Shown: piece by piece, positions 8,691 to 34,500 of the stretch
Numbering within the stretch: the first letter of the stretch is position 1
Layout of the letters: every line of letters starts with the position of its first letter
NCBI GenBank assembly: GCA_943332105.1
Contig: CALQOD010000019.1
Coordinates: 1-37,080 of the forward strand
DNA: 37,080 nt
DNA from: Chitinophaga pinensis
GTDB lineage: Bacteria; Bacteroidota; Bacteroidia; AKYH767-A; OLB10
Direction of reading: 5' to 3'
Translations under genes and position numbers: made by a program
The notes under the pieces: model-generated
The model's input: the letters and a program-made list of their open reading frames with translations, nothing else
Database searches by the model: none
What the model was told of the DNA's origin: nothing

Positions 8691-11600
8691 TTACGGAGCC
8701 GTAACATCAAAACTCTTATTCGCTGTATTGAATAAGACCGGATTTTTACTCCATGTTTCGAGGGAGTTACGGTGCTTAATAACCAAATAATACGATTGAT
8801 TTAATATCGCAAGCGGGAAGGTAAATGAAACTTGTCCGTTGGTGCTCACCACTTTTTTATCGGTGTAAACTAAGTTGTATGGCGAGGTTGGTTGTGCGAG
8901 CGATAGTGTAATTGTATCTGCTAATGTCGGATAAGCAGCGGCGTCAATAGCTGGTGCCATCATGTTCGTACCTGCATCGTAAAACCCTTCGATAAATAAT
9001 TTCATATTCAATGTTACAAAAGGATATTTCCCTTCTATTTTAATATTATCGATGTAAAGGTTATTTCCATAGCGACCAATATTGATAAAGCTACTTTGTA
9101 TGGATTGATTCGAATAGGAAGTTAAATTGATAGAATCGGTGCGCCATTGTGCAGCCGTTGGCGTAAACGCAGAACCGTTAGTCCCTGCAACTGTGGACAA
9201 GCCTGTCCCTGATTTGTAATAAAGATTATTAAAAGATACTCCGCAATCATTAGATATTCCTACCGCTAATGAATCTGCGTAGGTGGCAGAGGTGCTGTAT
9301 TGCTGATAGGCGGCATCAAACTTCAACCAGTACTCAGCAAATCCCGATAAATTTACTTTTGGCGACTGCATCTGATCACGTAATCCTCCTGAGCTTAACG
9401 AGTAATTTTGGTAAGTCATACAAGCTGTGCTCGTACCAAAGCCACTTGCAGTCGTGGAGCGCGTCCACACTTTGCCATCCGTACCTGCATCCACATTGGT
9501 CCACGCATCAGGAGGAAAGGTGGCTAGTTCAACTCCTTCTGCTAACGGCAACGTATTACCTCCAACAGCAATATAATTTGTTTTAGTAAGTGTTTTAGTA
9601 GAAGTACCTGCTGTTACTGTTAATGTAACATTAAAATTGCCAGATGAATTATATGTCACAACAGGATTTTTTAGTGCTGACGTAGAGGGAGTACCGCCCG
9701 GAAATGACCAGGACCAAGAAGTAGGGTTTCCAGTGGAAGCATCTGTAAATTGTACCGACTGACCAGCGCATGGTGTATTGATAGAAGCACTAAAGTTCGC
9801 CGATAAACTTCTCAAAGAACTGATTGGAACTTCCCACATTCCTCGACCATAGGTAGAGACACGCATTAATGCATTGCTTGTTCCATCATCGTATATGGAT
9901 AAGTCGTAAATATTTGTTCGGATAGGTAGCGCCGTGGCATAGCTTGTCCATGTTGTAGCAGAACCCACTTTGTAATAAACAACATTTCCTCCTGCAACAA
10001 TCATCAATTCATTAGCAGGATTAAAATCATCGGTGATGATATCAATATAATTTACTGCTGGAAGATTGTATGTAACATTCGTCCATGTTGCGCCATAATC
10101 GGCAGAGCGATAGACTTTACTACCTAATGCGGCGTAAACAATGGCAGGATTATTTTTTCTGGAAACTACTTTGGCGGACACAGAAGATGCTACCGGAAGT
10201 GCATACTGCGTAAATGTTGGTGACGCTGAATAAGCATTCTTTGTCACATATATGGCCTGATCACTCGTTACAACATAAATGGTGTTGCTATCACTCTGCG
10301 ACATATGTACACCCATAATAGACTTATTAATGGTTCCGATTTGCGTCCAGGTAGGAGATGTAGCTGTCAAGTTGGAGGTGATGTATAAATTACTATCGCC
10401 TACTGCTGCTAAATTTGAGTTGCTGCGATAGAATGAAATGTCTTTAAAACTTGCGCGAGGCAAACCAAACCCAGCTTCACTTCCTGTTACATTACGACGT
10501 TTCGCACTATTGAAATAATACACCCTTTGACTATTCGCAGTAAAATCGAAAGCACATTTTGTTGTCCAGTCGCCACCGCGATTTGTAAACCAACCCGTGC
10601 CTGTATTCGCATAATAGAGCTCGCCATTATCTTGTGTGCCGATGCTTATCATATCACGACGAGTAGGCGAACAACTTCCATGATAAATTTCGTAGCCATT
10701 GATACCATCACTCTTCGGCGACCAATTGTTTCCGCCATCAGTACTTAGCCAAACACCTCCATCATTAATATTATACAATTGAGAGGTGTTATAAGGATTC
10801 ACAACTATCTGATGCATGTCGGTGTGAACTTTCGCATACCAGTTAGTTAACTGCGTCCATGTTACACCTCCATCTATCGATTTCCAAACAGCATGTGCTA
10901 CCATGTAAATAATATTAGCATTGGTTCTGTCGACACCAATTCCAAAGTTATAATCACCCTGACCTACATCAGTAGATAAATTAGAATAGTACGTTAAATA
11001 AGGAGAAGCTGCGGTTTTAATTGCTGAGAAATTTGTTCCTCCATCCGTTGATTTATAAAGCATTCCTGCATTACCTACCATTCCGAAGTAAACAACATTG
11101 GTATCAGCAGGCGTTACTGCTATACGACAACCATCTCCATTCGTAACTCCGGCAGGCAAAACAATTCCTGCATTTATTTGCGTCCATGTTTCACCAAAAT
11201 CAGTAGAGCGAAAAAAAGCAGAATCGGTTGTTGCTGCATATAGCGTTCGAGATGTAGGTGTCTTTTGTTTTAAATCATCGAACGTTCGAGCTGTAGATTT
11301 AAGCGTCCATGTGCTACCCGCATTCGTTGTCTTATAAATTCCGGTGTTGGTAGCAGCAACGATAACCTGATTGTTCGTTGGATCCATTACCATTTCAACG
11401 ACAATTTTTCCGGTGAGCGTAGTTTGCGTAAACGTATTTCCTGCGTTGGTCGATTTCCAAACGCCGGAACCAGTAGAATAATAATTATGATCACCACCTC
11501 CGAGATAAATAATTGAATCATTGGTATGATCAATACAAACCGAGGCCATACGAGTTCCTGATGGCATGATGTCGCAACCAGGTGCTAACGTCCACGAAGT

Positions 11601-25776: not shown

Positions 25777-26001
25777 ATTCCTTTATTTGCGCCTAAACTA
25801 CAATTAACAATTGATTCCCCCTTATGAAATGTCATTGTTTAAATAGAAAAGGAGTCTAATCGACCATTTTTCATTGTATTCTGTCTCTATTTGTCGTAAT
25901 TTGCTATATCCTTTATGAAAGGGGCAATAATCTAATAAATGATACCTTTGAAAACAAAACAATTTATAATAAAATTAAGACACTCCCTCTTTCTCAATAT
26001 T

Positions 26002-29000
26002 ATGTTTAAATTCTTTACTCTATTAGCAGCCATTTTAATTAGTGGACAAATTAGTGGACAAATCATTGCACAAACTTTAACAGGAAACGAAGCAAAGAGC
26101 ATAAACAAAAATCTAGCGGAAGTCCGTTACGACCAACGCAGCTCAGCGCCTTTGTACATTAGTTTTATACCGGGCTCTTCTATTTCTCCTTCCGAAGAAA
26201 TGAATGGCTTATCAGCAATTTTGGGAATGTCAAAAGCAGACTCATGGCAACTGATAAGAAATGATAAAGATGATTTAGGGTTTACGCATAGCCGTTATCA
26301 GCAATATTATCAAAACATAAAAGTTATTACTGGAGAGTATATTTTGCATGTGAAAGGTTCACAAATTAATTCAGCAAATGGGATTTTTTATAGCCAACTT
26401 AGCATTTCAACAACTGCAAGTATCACTGCCCAACAAGCATTAGATCAGGCAAAGAAAGATATTGGAGCCTCAAAATATTTATGGGAATGTTCGGTAGCGG
26501 AACAAATTGCGTTGACAGGAAAAGTATATACTCCTATTGGAGAACTTGTAATACTCCCTTCATTAACCGGCGACAAAAAACAAAAGCCCATTTTATGCTG
26601 GAAGTTTGATGTATACGCAACGACACCGCATGAAAGATACAATGTATATGTAGATGCTAACACGGGTAAAATTGTTTTCAAAGAAAATAGAATTTGTACC
26701 ATTACAACTAACGGTACTGCAGTAACTAAATATAGCGGAGTTCAAACTATTGGGGTAGACAGTTTATCTCCAACCAGCTATCGCCTACGCGAATATTCAC
26801 GTGGATCGGGTGTTGAAACCTATAATATGCAGAAAGGAACTACCTATGCTTCGGCTGTAGACTTTTCTGATAATGACAATTACTGGAATACAACAACTAA
26901 TCAGGATGATGCAGCATTAGATGCTCACTTCGGTGCAGAAAAAACATTTGATTATTATTTTAATATCCACAACCGTAATAGTTACGACAACCTCGGAAGT
27001 ATATTACAATCGTATGTTCACTATAGCTCTTCTTACAACAATGCATTTTGGAACGGTACCGTTATGACGTATGGTGATGGCAATGGAACTACCTTTTCAC
27101 CTTTAACTGTACTCGATATTGCAGCGCATGAATTATCGCATGGCGTAACTGAATATACTTCTAACTTAGTTTACTCATACGAGTCCGGCGCACTTAATGA
27201 ATCTTTCTCAGATATTTTTGGTGTTTCTGTTGATTTTTATACGAATCCTTCCACTGCTAATTGGATTATAGGGGATCAATGTTATACTCCTGCAACTGCT
27301 GGAGACGGAATTCGTTTTATGAATAATCCAAATTTAGAAGGTGACCCTGATACCTACTTAGGTTTGAATTGGTATACTGGAACATCCGATTACGGTGGTG
27401 TACATTACAATAGCGGAGTACAAAATTTTTGGTATTATTTATTGAGTACAGGTGGCAGTGGAACCAACGACAAAGGATTTGTTTATAATGTTAGTGGAAT
27501 CGGAATTAATAATGCCAGATTAGTTGCCTATAGAAATAACAGTTATTACTTAACAAGTGGCTCGCAGTACGCCGATGCTGCATATTATGCTGTAAAATCT
27601 GCGAATGATATTTTTGGAAATTGTTCTAATTATTCTTTACAAGTTAAAAACGCATGGGATGCCGTAGGTGTTTATACAAACAATTTAAATTCATTAGCCG
27701 TTACAAGTTTTACAGGTGCAAGTTGTCTAGGTGCGCCATTACAACTTAATGCATCTGGAGGAACAGTATTCAGCTGGACGGGGCCTAACGGATTCATATC
27801 TACTTCGCAAAATCCAGTTATTTCTGCTGCGAGTAATAATAATAATGGTAGCTATACATGTATTATTACAGATGCGAATGGGTGTTCTGGTAGTTCAATC
27901 GTAAAAATTAAATTAAATACGTCTCCATCGATTATTGTTTCAGGAGGAGGCATCATATGTAGTGGGTCAAGTGTTCAATTAAATGCTAACGGTAGTGTAT
28001 ATGGGCAGGGACAAAATACAGGTAGTAATTCTAACTCGTTAGCAATTCCTGATTATCCAGCAGCTGGAGTTTCATCGCCAATTATTGTTGCGGGTAGTAC
28101 CTTAGCCAGCTCCATCGTATCTGTTACAATAGACTCGTTAATTCATACCTACGATGGGGATTTGAAAATTGAATTAATTTCTCCTTCGGGATCATCTATC
28201 ATACTTACCAATTCAGTTGGTGCTGCAGGCAATAATTTCATAAAAACAAAATTTGTTCCTGTTGGCACATCAATTAATAATGGTACTGCACCATTCACAG
28301 GTTCGTATGCTCCTTCACAATCATTCTCTTCACTTACTGGCGCTGCTAATGGAACATGGTCATTAAAGATTACTGATTTGGGATCAGTTGATGTTGGTAC
28401 ATTATACAAATGGTCAATTGAGTTACCAGCAAATAGCATAACATCATATAACTGGACACCTAGTACAGGACTAGATAATGCTACTATTACAAATCCAACA
28501 GCAAGTCCAACACAAGCTACTACTTATACTGCAACATCTACTGACCTTAACGGATGTACTGCTTCAGGAACTACAGCAGTTGATATTGGAACACTTTCAC
28601 TATCTGAAACACATACGAATGTATTGTGTAAGGGGGGCGCAACGGGAAAGGCAACAGTTAATGTAATAGGAAATATTTCTGGGGCTATTTCATATTTGTG
28701 GGATAATGGCGCTACTATTAATTCTATTAATAATCTATCGGCAGGACAATACAGCTGTATCGCTACTAACAGTAATGGATGTACTTCAACACAGACATTA
28801 ATAATTTCTGAGCCCGCTACTTCATTAAGTGGTCCAATAACCTATACAAATGAAACTTGCCAGAATGCTAATGGAAGTTGTACAATTAATGTTACGGGAG
28901 GCGTTGCTCCTTATAATATTGTTTGGAATAATGGCGCTATTGGAGCAACTGCAAGTAATTTAGCTGCTGGAACATATCAAGCAACAGTTACCGATACGAA

Positions 29001-30078
29001 TGGTTGCTTATTAATTAATACGATCACTTTAACGAATACAGGGATTTCATCAATTGGTACTATTGGAACTATAACAGGGACTAAAAATGGTGTTTGTCCT
29101 GGCACAACAAAATTATATTCAATTGCTGCAGTATCAAATGCAACCAACTATGTTTGGACTGCACCTTCAAATTCTACAATTATTAGTGGTCAAGGAACTA
29201 ACTCAATTAAAATTCAATATGGTGCGGGCTTCGCGAGTGGCAATTTATCTGTTTATGCAAGTAATGCCTGTAAATCAACAAGTACAATTATAACAGCAAT
29301 TAAAAGTATTCCAGCGACACCCGGAACTATTAAAGGTTCAATTACAAATTTATGTGGAGCACCTTCGACTTACAGCATAACAGCTGTTTCAGGTGCAACT
29401 TCGTATACATGGAGCGTTCCTTCCATTGCTTCTATTGTAAGTGGGCAGGGCTCCAATACAATTCAAGTATTATGGCCTTCATCGAATTTATCTAGTCAAT
29501 CCATTTGTGTTAGTGCTAATAACGCTTGCGGAAGTAGTCTGGCAAAATGCTTAACTGGCATTACTACATTGCCATTAAAGCCAGTAAAAGTAACAGGGCC
29601 TCTTTCAGTTTGTGCGAACCAAACAAATCTAACGTATAGCGTTACCGCAGAACCGGGAGTAACCTATACTTGGGGAGTTCCGGCGGGAGGAAGTATACTA
29701 TCAGGACAAGGCACGTCAACTGTAACAGTAAAATGGGGATCAGCAAGTGGCAGTTTAAAAGTAACCGCTTCGAACCAATGCGGAACGCAAACAATAAAAT
29801 ATCAAGCTATAAGTGTAACATGTCGTACAGGTGAAAATGATTTCAATGAAATCACCCTATCGCCAAACCCAAATGATGGTAATGCTATAATAAACCTAGG
29901 GAGCGAAAAATCATTTATTATTACAGTTAACGATATGCTTGGAAGACTTATCACTAAAAATTCTTCAGAGGGGCAATACTATGAGTTAAAATTAAATGAT
30001 CAACCTAAGGGAATTTATATCATTTCTATTTTACCAACTAATGGTGAAAAGAAAATATTTAGAATGGTTGTTCAATAG
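26002..30078 (+). CDS. Secreted M4 (thermolysin-like) metalloprotease with P domain, SprB and Ig-like repeats and a T9SS type A tail
   Basis: The start is set at ATG 26002, which puts the signal peptide first (MFKFFTLLAAILISGQ); ATG 25939 in the same frame adds 21 residues. An FTP/PepSY-type propeptide follows (to residue ~225), then the peptidase with zinc site H376-E-L-S-H380 and E400 (GALNESFSD), the thermolysin spacing. C-terminal to it come an Ig-like segment, a proprotein-convertase P domain (IHTYDGDLKIELISPSG), two SprB-like repeats (ITDANGC-type ends, LWDNGATINSINNLSAGQY), three PKD-like repeats of ~85 residues (each with TYxWxxP...SGQGxxxxxVxW), and a type A T9SS tail (LSPNPNDGNAIINL ... 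GIYIISI). It should be exported by T9SS and act on extracellular protein. The signal region contains a 9-bp-unit duplication (SGQISGQ). Confidence 0.93.
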   Translation: MFKFFTLLAAILISGQISGQIIAQTLTGNEAKSINKNLAEVRYDQRSSAPLYISFIPGSSISPSEEMNGLSAILGMSKADSWQLIRNDKDDLGFTHSRYQQYYQNIKVITGEYILHVKGSQINSANGIFYSQLSISTTASITAQQALDQAKKDIGASKYLWECSVAEQIALTGKVYTPIGELVILPSLTGDKKQKPILCWKFDVYATTPHERYNVYVDANTGKIVFKENRICTITTNGTAVTKYSGVQTIGVDSLSPTSYRLREYSRGSGVETYNMQKGTTYASAVDFSDNDNYWNTTTNQDDAALDAHFGAEKTFDYYFNIHNRNSYDNLGSILQSYVHYSSSYNNAFWNGTVMTYGDGNGTTFSPLTVLDIAAHELSHGVTEYTSNLVYSYESGALNESFSDIFGVSVDFYTNPSTANWIIGDQCYTPATAGDGIRFMNNPNLEGDPDTYLGLNWYTGTSDYGGVHYNSGVQNFWYYLLSTGGSGTNDKGFVYNVSGIGINNARLVAYRNNSYYLTSGSQYADAAYYAVKSANDIFGNCSNYSLQVKNAWDAVGVYTNNLNSLAVTSFTGASCLGAPLQLNASGGTVFSWTGPNGFISTSQNPVISAASNNNNGSYTCIITDANGCSGSSIVKIKLNTSPSIIVSGGGIICSGSSVQLNANGSVYGQGQNTGSNSNSLAIPDYPAAGVSSPIIVAGSTLASSIVSVTIDSLIHTYDGDLKIELISPSGSSIILTNSVGAAGNNFIKTKFVPVGTSINNGTAPFTGSYAPSQSFSSLTGAANGTWSLKITDLGSVDVGTLYKWSIELPANSITSYNWTPSTGLDNATITNPTASPTQATTYTATSTDLNGCTASGTTAVDIGTLSLSETHTNVLCKGGATGKATVNVIGNISGAISYLWDNGATINSINNLSAGQYSCIATNSNGCTSTQTLIISEPATSLSGPITYTNETCQNANGSCTINVTGGVAPYNIVWNNGAIGATASNLAAGTYQATVTDTNGCLLINTITLTNTGISSIGTIGTITGTKNGVCPGTTKLYSIAAVSNATNYVWTAPSNSTIISGQGTNSIKIQYGAGFASGNLSVYASNACKSTSTIITAIKSIPATPGTIKGSITNLCGAPSTYSITAVSGATSYTWSVPSIASIVSGQGSNTIQVLWPSSNLSSQSICVSANNACGSSLAKCLTGITTLPLKPVKVTGPLSVCANQTNLTYSVTAEPGVTYTWGVPAGGSILSGQGTSTVTVKWGSASGSLKVTASNQCGTQTIKYQAISVTCRTGENDFNEITLSPNPNDGNAIINLGSEKSFIITVNDMLGRLITKNSSEGQYYELKLNDQPKGIYIISILPTNGEKKIFRMVVQ

Positions 30079-31515: not shown

Positions 31516-34500
31516 TTATGGTGCCGTAAAATCGAATGTTGTCGTTGCACCAATTAGCACTGGGTTGGCACTCCAGGTTTCAATTGAATTACGATGTTTT
31601 ACAACGATGTAATAAGAAGAACCGATTAATGCTCCAGGAAACTGAACTTGAACATTTCCATCAGTTTTTAAAACACCATTTGTTGATGCTGTGATCGCAA
31701 AAGGACTAGAAGAATTATGAAGTTCGATAGTGATATTATCTACATCATTAGGATTAGTACTTAATCCGTTATTATATAATACAGGTGCCATTACCCCACC
31801 CGCTAAAGTATATCCTTGCAAATATACCTTTATATTAAGAGTTGCGTTGGTTAAAACGGTAAAGCTTCCTGATGATGTTCCATTGCATGAACCTTTAACA
31901 ACTGTAATTACTCCTGTTGTTGCACCTGCTGGTACTGACGCGGTAATTTGTCCATCGTTATTTACAGTAAATGATGTTGCTGCTGTACCATTAAATTGAA
32001 CTGTTGTTGCACCTGTAAATCCAGAACCAGAAATAACTACAGTAGTGCCTACTGTTCCTGATGTTGGACTTACTCCACTAACACTTACATTAACTACCGT
32101 TAATTGTAATTGATAATCCTGACAATTAGCATTGTAATTATAAGTACCAGTCTGCGTATATACAGACCCGTTAGCCGACCATGTATATGCCCCACAAGAA
32201 GTCGTTGTTGTAACAATTGTTGCAGCTGGCGAACCCGTAACATCCCAAGCACATGTTGTATTATTAAACGTTGCAGTTTGATAACATGCTAGTGTTGGCA
32301 TTATTGGTTGTGTTCCTGTTACTACCCATGAACATGAGGTTGTATTAAACGTTGCTGTTTCATAGCACGCTAATCCTGTTGGAGCAACAGGTTGCGTTCC
32401 TGTTACGACCCATGAGCATGAGGTTGTATTGAAGCTAGCAGTTTCATAGCATGCTAATGTTGGCATTCCAGGTTGAGTCCCTGTTACTACCCATGAACAT
32501 GAGGTTGTATTGAAGCTAGCAGTTTGGTAGCATGCTAAGCTAGGTTGTGAAGGTTGAGAACCTGTTACATCCCAAGCACATGATGTTGTATTGAAGCTAG
32601 CAGTTTGATAGCATGCTAATGTTGGAAGCGTAGGTTGTGTTCCTGTTACTACCCAAGAGCATGAGGTTGTATTAAACGTTGCTGTTTCGTAACATGCTAA
32701 TGTTGGTAATGCAGGTTGAGCTGGTTGAGTAATTGTATAAGATGCATTTTGCGTACATCCAGCAGCGTTAGTAACTGTCACGGTATAATTTCCAGCAGGC
32801 GCATTTGCTAAATCCTGTGTTGTTGCTCCATTGCTCCATAAATAGGAAGTACTGTTTACCACGCTTATTGTTGAAGTGCTATTAGTAAATGAGCTTGCAT
32901 CTGTTGCCCATGTACGAGGAGTTGAATACAAACCTGTTTGATAATTATAGGTTCCTGTTGCATAGAATGATTTTCCTTGCGTCGGATTTGATGGAATGAA
33001 ATAACTAGTCGATTGTAAATAACCTCCGTTATATTTATCATTAACTGGTAAAACATATCCAGCAGTACCAGAACTTACAATTGCATTTCCTAACGCAGTT
33101 CCGTAGAAGATTGCATCAACAGGAACCGTTGTATTTGTGATAGATGAAGCAGCCACATTAAATACTCCAACTGCATCAGCACTTGTAGTTCCGTTTCCTA
33201 AAACACCACTATTTGCTAAACTTCCAAATGCATCACCTGCTGCGGTACCAGTTCCTATTACACGAAGTTTCGTTCCAGTTGGACCCATTAATGTACCACC
33301 CACATAAACCACATCTCCTTTTTGAACAGAACCTGAATTAATATTAAATCCGTATGTTATTCCTGCACCAGCTTTCCAACCATTTGTTGTAGCTGTTCCA
33401 TTATTTACAAATACAACCGAGAATGGAGTAACAGTGAAATCGATAGTTCGAGTCGCAATTAACTCTACCCACTCATTACTATTATCTGTTCCAGTTGGAT
33501 CTGCCATAAATTCAGAAATTAATAATCCCGGATCTGTTGCTGAATTGCTTGCAACATCTGCTGATGAAGAAATATCAATTGATCCAGTTAATCCATAACA
33601 AGCAGCATTAGTTATTGAATTTGCAGCTAATGTAATTGCATCTGGTTGTGTAATAGTTGCAGAATTAGAAGTTGTACATCCATTCGCATCTGTGATAGTT
33701 ACATTGTATGTACCAGCAACAATACCTGATAAATCTTCTGTAACTGAAGCATTAGACCATAAATAAGTATAAGAAGGTGTTCCTCCAGATACTGATAAAT
33801 TAACAGCTCCATTTGAACTTCCATTACATGTAGCATTAGTAACTGAAACGCTTGATGACAATACTGTTGAAGGTTCAGTAATAGTAATTGTTAATGAATC
33901 TTTACAACCTTTATTTTCTGTTACTACTACTTTATACGTTCCAGCTGTAAGGTTTGAAATATCTTCTGTTGTTGCTCCATTCGACCATGCAAAAGTATAA
34001 GGTGCTTGTCCGCCAGAAACAGTTAGATTAATTGAACCAGTGGTTCCATTTTTACATAATACATTTGTTTTTACTGATGTTAGCGTAGGAGGTGTACAAG
34101 AACAATCGTTCAACACTAAATTAGTAGTTGCCATTTCAGTACATCCATTAGAATAGGTAACAATAACTGTATACGTTTGCGCACCAGCTTCTGAAATTGC
34201 AAATGCAGAAGTTGAAACAGTTGGGCTTTGCAAGCTTGAAGTAAATCCGTGAGGACCAGTCCATGACCACGCAGTTCCATTATTAACACTAACAGATGCA
34301 TCTGTACCAATACATGTTGCCCCACCGTTAGTTGCAATCGGATTGTTTGATGCAGGTTGAGAAATTGTAACACTGGTGCTTAATGAACATCCATTACCAT
34401 CCGTAGCAGTAACAGTATATGTACCCGCTGCTAACGATAATTGTGTATCTGTACTACTTCCCGCCAACCATAAATAGTTTACAGTAGCATTTGAACTTGT

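Follow-up and report, generated by a model that had tools for sequence, protein, structure and literature searches.

C-terminal domains of type A (type A CTDs; TIGR04183 / PF18962) route proteins through the T9SS (PMC10202324), and tails of type B (TIGR04131) and type C (NF033708) likewise occupy C-termini in T9SS Bacteroidota. In cellulosomal proteins, X-modules stabilize the adjoining dockerin and its attachment to cohesin (PMC4266597, PMC8063739), and they contact and strengthen the cohesin-dockerin complex (PMC4266597). X-dockerin (XDoc) modules of this kind are represented in type II cohesin complexes by C. thermocellum CipA (2b59/5g5d) and by ScaA (4wi0/4u3s). For Cloacimonadota, the available part of one account (PMC8542988) infers secreted enzymes that end in dockerins, together with a CTD-bearing cohesin scaffoldin.

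Here we describe a domain of ~107 residues that ends two proteins encoded on a contig of Chitinophaga pinensis (contig C19, 37,080 nucleotides, which was analyzed whole and is called the window; Table 1). No Pfam or NCBIfam model matches the domain. Its closest known counterpart is cellulosomal XDoc: in the relatives, a predicted β-sandwich is immediately followed by a dockerin of two repeats that forms the extreme C-terminus, with the two halves placed alike, and in one deep-branching relative that was checked a cohesin lies in the same protein. Unlike XDoc, the X half in Bacteroidota has no detectable sequence similarity to its cellulosomal counterpart, its carriers are propeller, nuclease, and SprB-repeat proteins of T9SS Bacteroidota, and the proteins in the window do without the dockerin half in a genome with no detected cohesin. 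The domain resembles the type A CTD in its extreme C-terminal position on orthologous bodies within the same genomes and in being a predicted β-sandwich of similar size, but it has no sequence match to the type A models, has other motifs, and can precede a dockerin; its dependence on the T9SS is presumptive. Type B and type C tails share the C-terminal position, but their models do not match either. As in the Cloacimonadota system, some signal-peptide proteins of the relatives end in dockerins and the lineage also has T9SS-type CTDs, but an X-like domain is not mentioned in the available part of that account (PMC8542988), and the window proteins have no dockerin. No account of the domain's motif, or of a T9SS link for X-dockerin modules, was found in the literature searched.

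Table 1. Positions in the window of the X-like domains, the proteins that carry them, and the type A tail of a neighboring protease.
Feature	Position	Strand	Remarks
Protein 1, 1045 aa	8691..11828	-	signal peptide, VPS10/BNR-type propeller, PKD, lectin-like region, X-like domain
X-like C-terminal domain, protein 1, residues 939-1045	8694..9014	-	ends ...SFDVTAP, without dockerin
PKD domain, protein 1, residues 687-755	9564..9770	-	PF18911 E=2.3e-11
Protein 2, at least 1854 aa	31516..37080	-	SprB repeats, 22-residue repeats, IPT/TIG-like region, X-like domain
X-like C-terminal domain, protein 2, residues 1747-1854	31519..31842	-	ends ...TFDFTAP, without dockerin
T9SS type A tail, neighboring M4 metalloprotease (gene 25939-30078)	29860..30075	+	TIGR04183; PF18962 E=1.1e-6

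The C-terminal ~107 residues of protein 1 and protein 2 are homologous, with 47 of 110 positions identical in a BLASTP alignment of the two ends (43%, 89.7 bits, E=1e-29), well above what chance would give, and in both genes a TAA stop directly follows ...TAP. The N-terminus of protein 1, MKKYIRLLIVFIYCSLNVAAQ, reads by eye as a Sec signal peptide. The contig ends within the 5′ part of the protein 2 gene, so the protein's N-terminus lies outside the window and its stated length is a minimum. Residues 1461-1618 of protein 2 (window 32227-32700, minus strand) contain six near-identical 22-residue repeats, LACY(E/Q)TA(S/T)FN(T/N)T(S/T)C(A/S)W(D/V)VTG(S/T)(Q/P), spaced by 27-28 residues, with two cysteines each and no Pfam match; an inverted repeat, GAGGGGGCAATC...GATTGCCCCCTC, was seen by eye 3′ of the gene.

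In the genome to which the window belongs (2.77 Mb, 147 contigs), the domain occurs in five copies, every one at a C-terminus. The three beyond the window lie on contigs C131, where the protein ends with the domain, C84, where the copy has 18 extra residues, and C35, where it is diverged. In none of the five domain-bearing frames was there a match to TIGR04183 (type A) or TIGR04131 (type B), and searches of the two window proteins with TIGR04183 / PF18962 and with the type C model NF033708 gave no match. The genome as a whole has ~123 type A matches above the cut-off, together with 23 of type B, and SprA is present. These results, with the alignment above and the tail of the M4 protease (Table 1), bear out what the first-pass annotation had recorded: a C-terminal domain shared by two secreted proteins that stop exactly at TAP and have no type A tail, beside a protease that has one. 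The idea that the domain was a coincidence of two proteins was rejected on the strength of the further copies in this genome and in relatives. A dockerin search of the genome gave no match anywhere, a cohesin search (PF00963) gave 0 matches, and no dockerin remnant is evident in the sequence 3′ of either stop in the window.

Scanning public genomes yielded 413 confirmed relatives, and 80 of these were retrieved. Where protein ends could be read, the X-like domain either closes the protein or precedes an ~82-residue tail containing two repeats, GDxNQDGxxDxxDY...DLNGDGxVDxxDY, and mostly ending ...P before the stop. This tail matches Dockerin_1 (PF00404, E 3e-6 to 6e-4), and a profile built from it matches type I dockerins of solved PDB structures. 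The dockerin-like module stands behind the domain in 56 of 82 domain-bearing ends (3 of the other 26 are contig-cut) and, among the matches listed, in 66 of 150. In a phylum-wide sample the X-like domain was found in 29 of 395 genomes, and nearly all copies fetched from outside the window's own genome had a dockerin-like tail, with degenerate repeats in some. When the search was started from the dockerin, 66 of the 82 dockerins had an X-like domain immediately upstream among the matches listed. The remaining 16 of 82 had no partner among the 150 X matches listed, but one of them (G040:C357) does have its X domain, so true orphan dockerins should be few. A dockerin search of 18 relatives without the X-like domain returned one weak match in total. 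A plasmid search, covering one wide relative, gave no match.

The idea that the domain is always terminal was rejected. The first-pass annotation had asked whether the domain is always C-terminal in T9SS genomes; this holds for the five copies of the window's genome, whereas in relatives the dockerin usually follows, and in one protein (L056) the X-like domain is N-terminal, directly behind the signal peptide, the only clear case of this kind seen. Other domains behind the X-like domain, which the annotation had counted against its reading, therefore do occur in part, as the dockerin-like module and in L056. In L056 (2841-3683), fn3-like and Fib_succ_major regions come after the domain. A further locus, L047, has 490 residues behind the dockerin, which may come from a fusion or from a stop that was missed; this locus was left aside. 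In several relatives neighboring genes occur in runs, each gene with an X-like domain (G334:C1:3591185-3599162, G276:C1:919869-923152, L086, and L087); in the L086 and L087 runs the domains have dockerin tails.

Structure prediction gave a confident AlphaFold model for the X-like domain alone (pLDDT 95) and for the domain together with the dockerin (pLDDT 97.5, pTM 0.92), the latter full module being taken from a relative and not from the window proteins. With the full module, ranks 1-10 in Foldseek were all X-dockerin modules (E 8.8e-7 to 3.6e-5, ~190 columns), and the eight best VIA matches were X-dockerins from type II complexes of cellulosomes (143-149 aligned residues, Z 10.8-12.7), the next match being an unrelated one at Z 5.9. 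The domain alone was less discriminating: XDoc chains appeared weakly in Foldseek at ranks 2, 3, 5, and 8 (E 5e-3 to 1.5e-2), and VIA found a common transthyretin-like sandwich (Z at most 7.7) with no family singled out. A sequence search of solved structures with the domain alone returned only weak matches, to phage baseplate gp10 (E 0.03), which were taken as chance. No X-module was found when the domain profile (A4) was compared with the PDB at E up to 1, and the link to XDoc is based on predicted structure and on architecture rather than on sequence. Because the predicted domain and dockerin superpose over their full length on XDoc modules, the ~107-residue domain is very probably the X-like half of an X-dockerin-like dyad of Bacteroidota, a half that is predicted to be a transthyretin/Ig-type β-sandwich.

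The relation of the X-like domain to the type A CTD is seen on orthologous proteins. A search with the body of protein 1 (residues 1-933) covered 41 relatives, and a tree of 38 bodies was constructed. Protein 1 falls in a clade of 12 members (100/99 support), of which 7 end in X, 4 in X-dockerin, and 1, the 58% identical protein of genome G007, in a type A CTD. All 26 of the 26 rows outside this clade end in type A CTDs, among them a paralogue from the window's own genome (L188; G000:C1:43400-47400), which contains the whole protein 1 body at 44% identity over 929 residues and has a type A match at C1:43646-43876 and no X-like domain at its end. The type A tails of five rows, including G007, the paralogue, and two unlabelled rows, were confirmed with TIGR04183; the other type A labels were assigned by a YPNP-type motif. 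The X-dockerin label requires at least 3 changes on the tree. In a second family, that of the C131 nuclease, the X end occurs in ten genomes and the X-dockerin end in two. No end that was inspected (by eye, and by model in the window's genome) combined X with a type A tail. The body tree and the ends of the nuclease family show X, X-dockerin, and the type A CTD as alternatives at a single position of the same protein. The exchange of C-terminal modules is not in itself proof of equal function. Nonetheless, a type A CTD at the same place on the propeller orthologues favors an alternative sorting or anchoring signal over an inert cap; that suggestion of the first-pass annotation is now the leading functional idea, although the X-dockerin identity of the domain had been missed.

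The distribution of the dockerin half differs sharply between families. Among the matches listed, a dockerin follows 56 of 56 X domains in the seven sister genomes of family f3, compared with 10 of 94 in the window's family (f1) plus genome G036. The window proteins stop at the exact X/dockerin boundary, where relatives run from YDFTTAA into SKAYGNN. Since X-dockerin is found phylum-wide and the X-only form is seen largely in one family, loss is the more economical direction of change, and the dockerin half would mostly have been lost in the window's family, exactly at the domain boundary. The X-only domain is under purifying selection: R85, N86, E89, W91, and S92 of the HRNxxETWS motif are 100% invariant in X-only copies (25 rows), and their pairwise dN/dS values are 0.03-0.25 where computable. 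The retention of the core motif and these dN/dS values indicate that the X-like domain has a use without the dockerin. X-only copies reach up to 13 per genome (G005). Two positions of alignment A4, 32 and 93 (numbered on the domain at window 31519-31845), differ by form, X-only copies having mostly P at position 32 and K after ETWS, and X-dockerin copies mostly a variable residue and A. This difference, which is uncorrected for relatedness, could possibly mark a surface once covered by the dockerin.

Every one of the 29 genomes in the phylum sample that carry the domain has SprA, against 303 of 395 overall (hypergeometric P=3.3e-4), and occurrence of the domain in genomes without the T9SS, raised earlier as a point against the sorting idea, was not found in that sample. 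The test is weak, since the SprA-negative genomes listed are mostly of one family and phylogeny is uncorrected. Over both samples, SprA was found in 47 of 48 domain-bearing genomes; the exception (G022) is 80% complete. Of the 20 deep-branching genomes in the phylum sample that carry the domain, 16 have cohesin matches. In the window's order, such matches are equally weak with and without X, and for that reason no cohesin partner is proposed there. In a protein of one deep-branching member of the Bacteroidota (L135; G118:C14), a cohesin, an X-like domain, and a dockerin-like tail lie in one open frame; G054:C12 likewise appears to combine them, judging by a shared frame length, and proteins of the L135 type are candidate adaptor or self-assembling surface proteins.

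The best explanation of these data, to which we assign a probability of about 55%, is that the X-like domain belongs to an exchangeable C-terminal attachment or export module, widespread among T9SS-bearing Bacteroidota, with the X half acting alone in the window's proteins. A Sec signal would carry the protein across the inner membrane, and the C-terminal X-like domain would then do the job of a type A CTD, both routing the protein and holding it at the outer surface; a dockerin, in proteins that have one, would additionally dock them to a cohesin-type partner. Within this scheme, X-ended proteins presumably depend on the T9SS, and the dockerin-bearing forms presumably bind cohesin. The sufficiency of X alone for surface export or retention is proposed tentatively, at somewhat less than even odds.

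A different interpretation is that the X-like domain is a vestige or structural cap with no role in export or anchoring, the proteins being periplasmic or exported by a signal elsewhere in the protein. The stop at the X/dockerin boundary and the lack of detected dockerin and cohesin in the window's genome fit such a leftover, as does the fact that cellulosomal X-modules are mainly stabilizers of the adjoining dockerin (PMC4266597). A vestige sits poorly, however, with the invariant core motif and low dN/dS of X-only copies and with their number in single genomes, and within the body clade proteins end only in X, X-dockerin, or type A CTD, with none ending in nothing; we consider this interpretation unlikely. 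Less likely again is an interaction module that binds a surface partner, cohesin-like or other, while export proceeds by a separate route. The contacts made by X-modules in cohesin-dockerin complexes (PMC4266597) offer a precedent, HRNxxETWS is conserved in X-only and X-dockerin forms alike, and cohesins accompany the domain in most of the deep-branching genomes, but the window's own genome is without a cohesin match, X-bearing members of its order show no cohesin excess, and no partner gene was identified. The domain could also be imagined as an unrecognised, diverged T9SS tail of type A, B, or C, being a C-terminal β-sandwich of ~100 residues in T9SS genomes whose structural matches include the CTD of the T9SS protein mirolase (8qb1_C, VIA Z 6.8 with the domain alone). 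That match is tied with unrelated sandwiches, a dockerin stands behind the domain in most relatives, and TIGR04183, TIGR04131, and NF033708 all fail to match; this last reading is highly improbable and was rejected for want of a model match.

The attachment or export module proposed here bears on the question of how Sec-exported proteins of Bacteroidota arrive at the surface when they end in no tail of type A, B, or C. With an X-like domain in the place of a type A CTD on orthologues, that question becomes directly testable in one protein family. The findings also extend the X-dockerin architecture, of which clostridial cellulosomes provide the best-known examples, to bacteria with a T9SS and to proteins of no evident cellulosomal character. 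With a profile of the domain, a family missed by Pfam and NCBIfam could be annotated; in part of it, the X half has been kept under selection without its dockerin.
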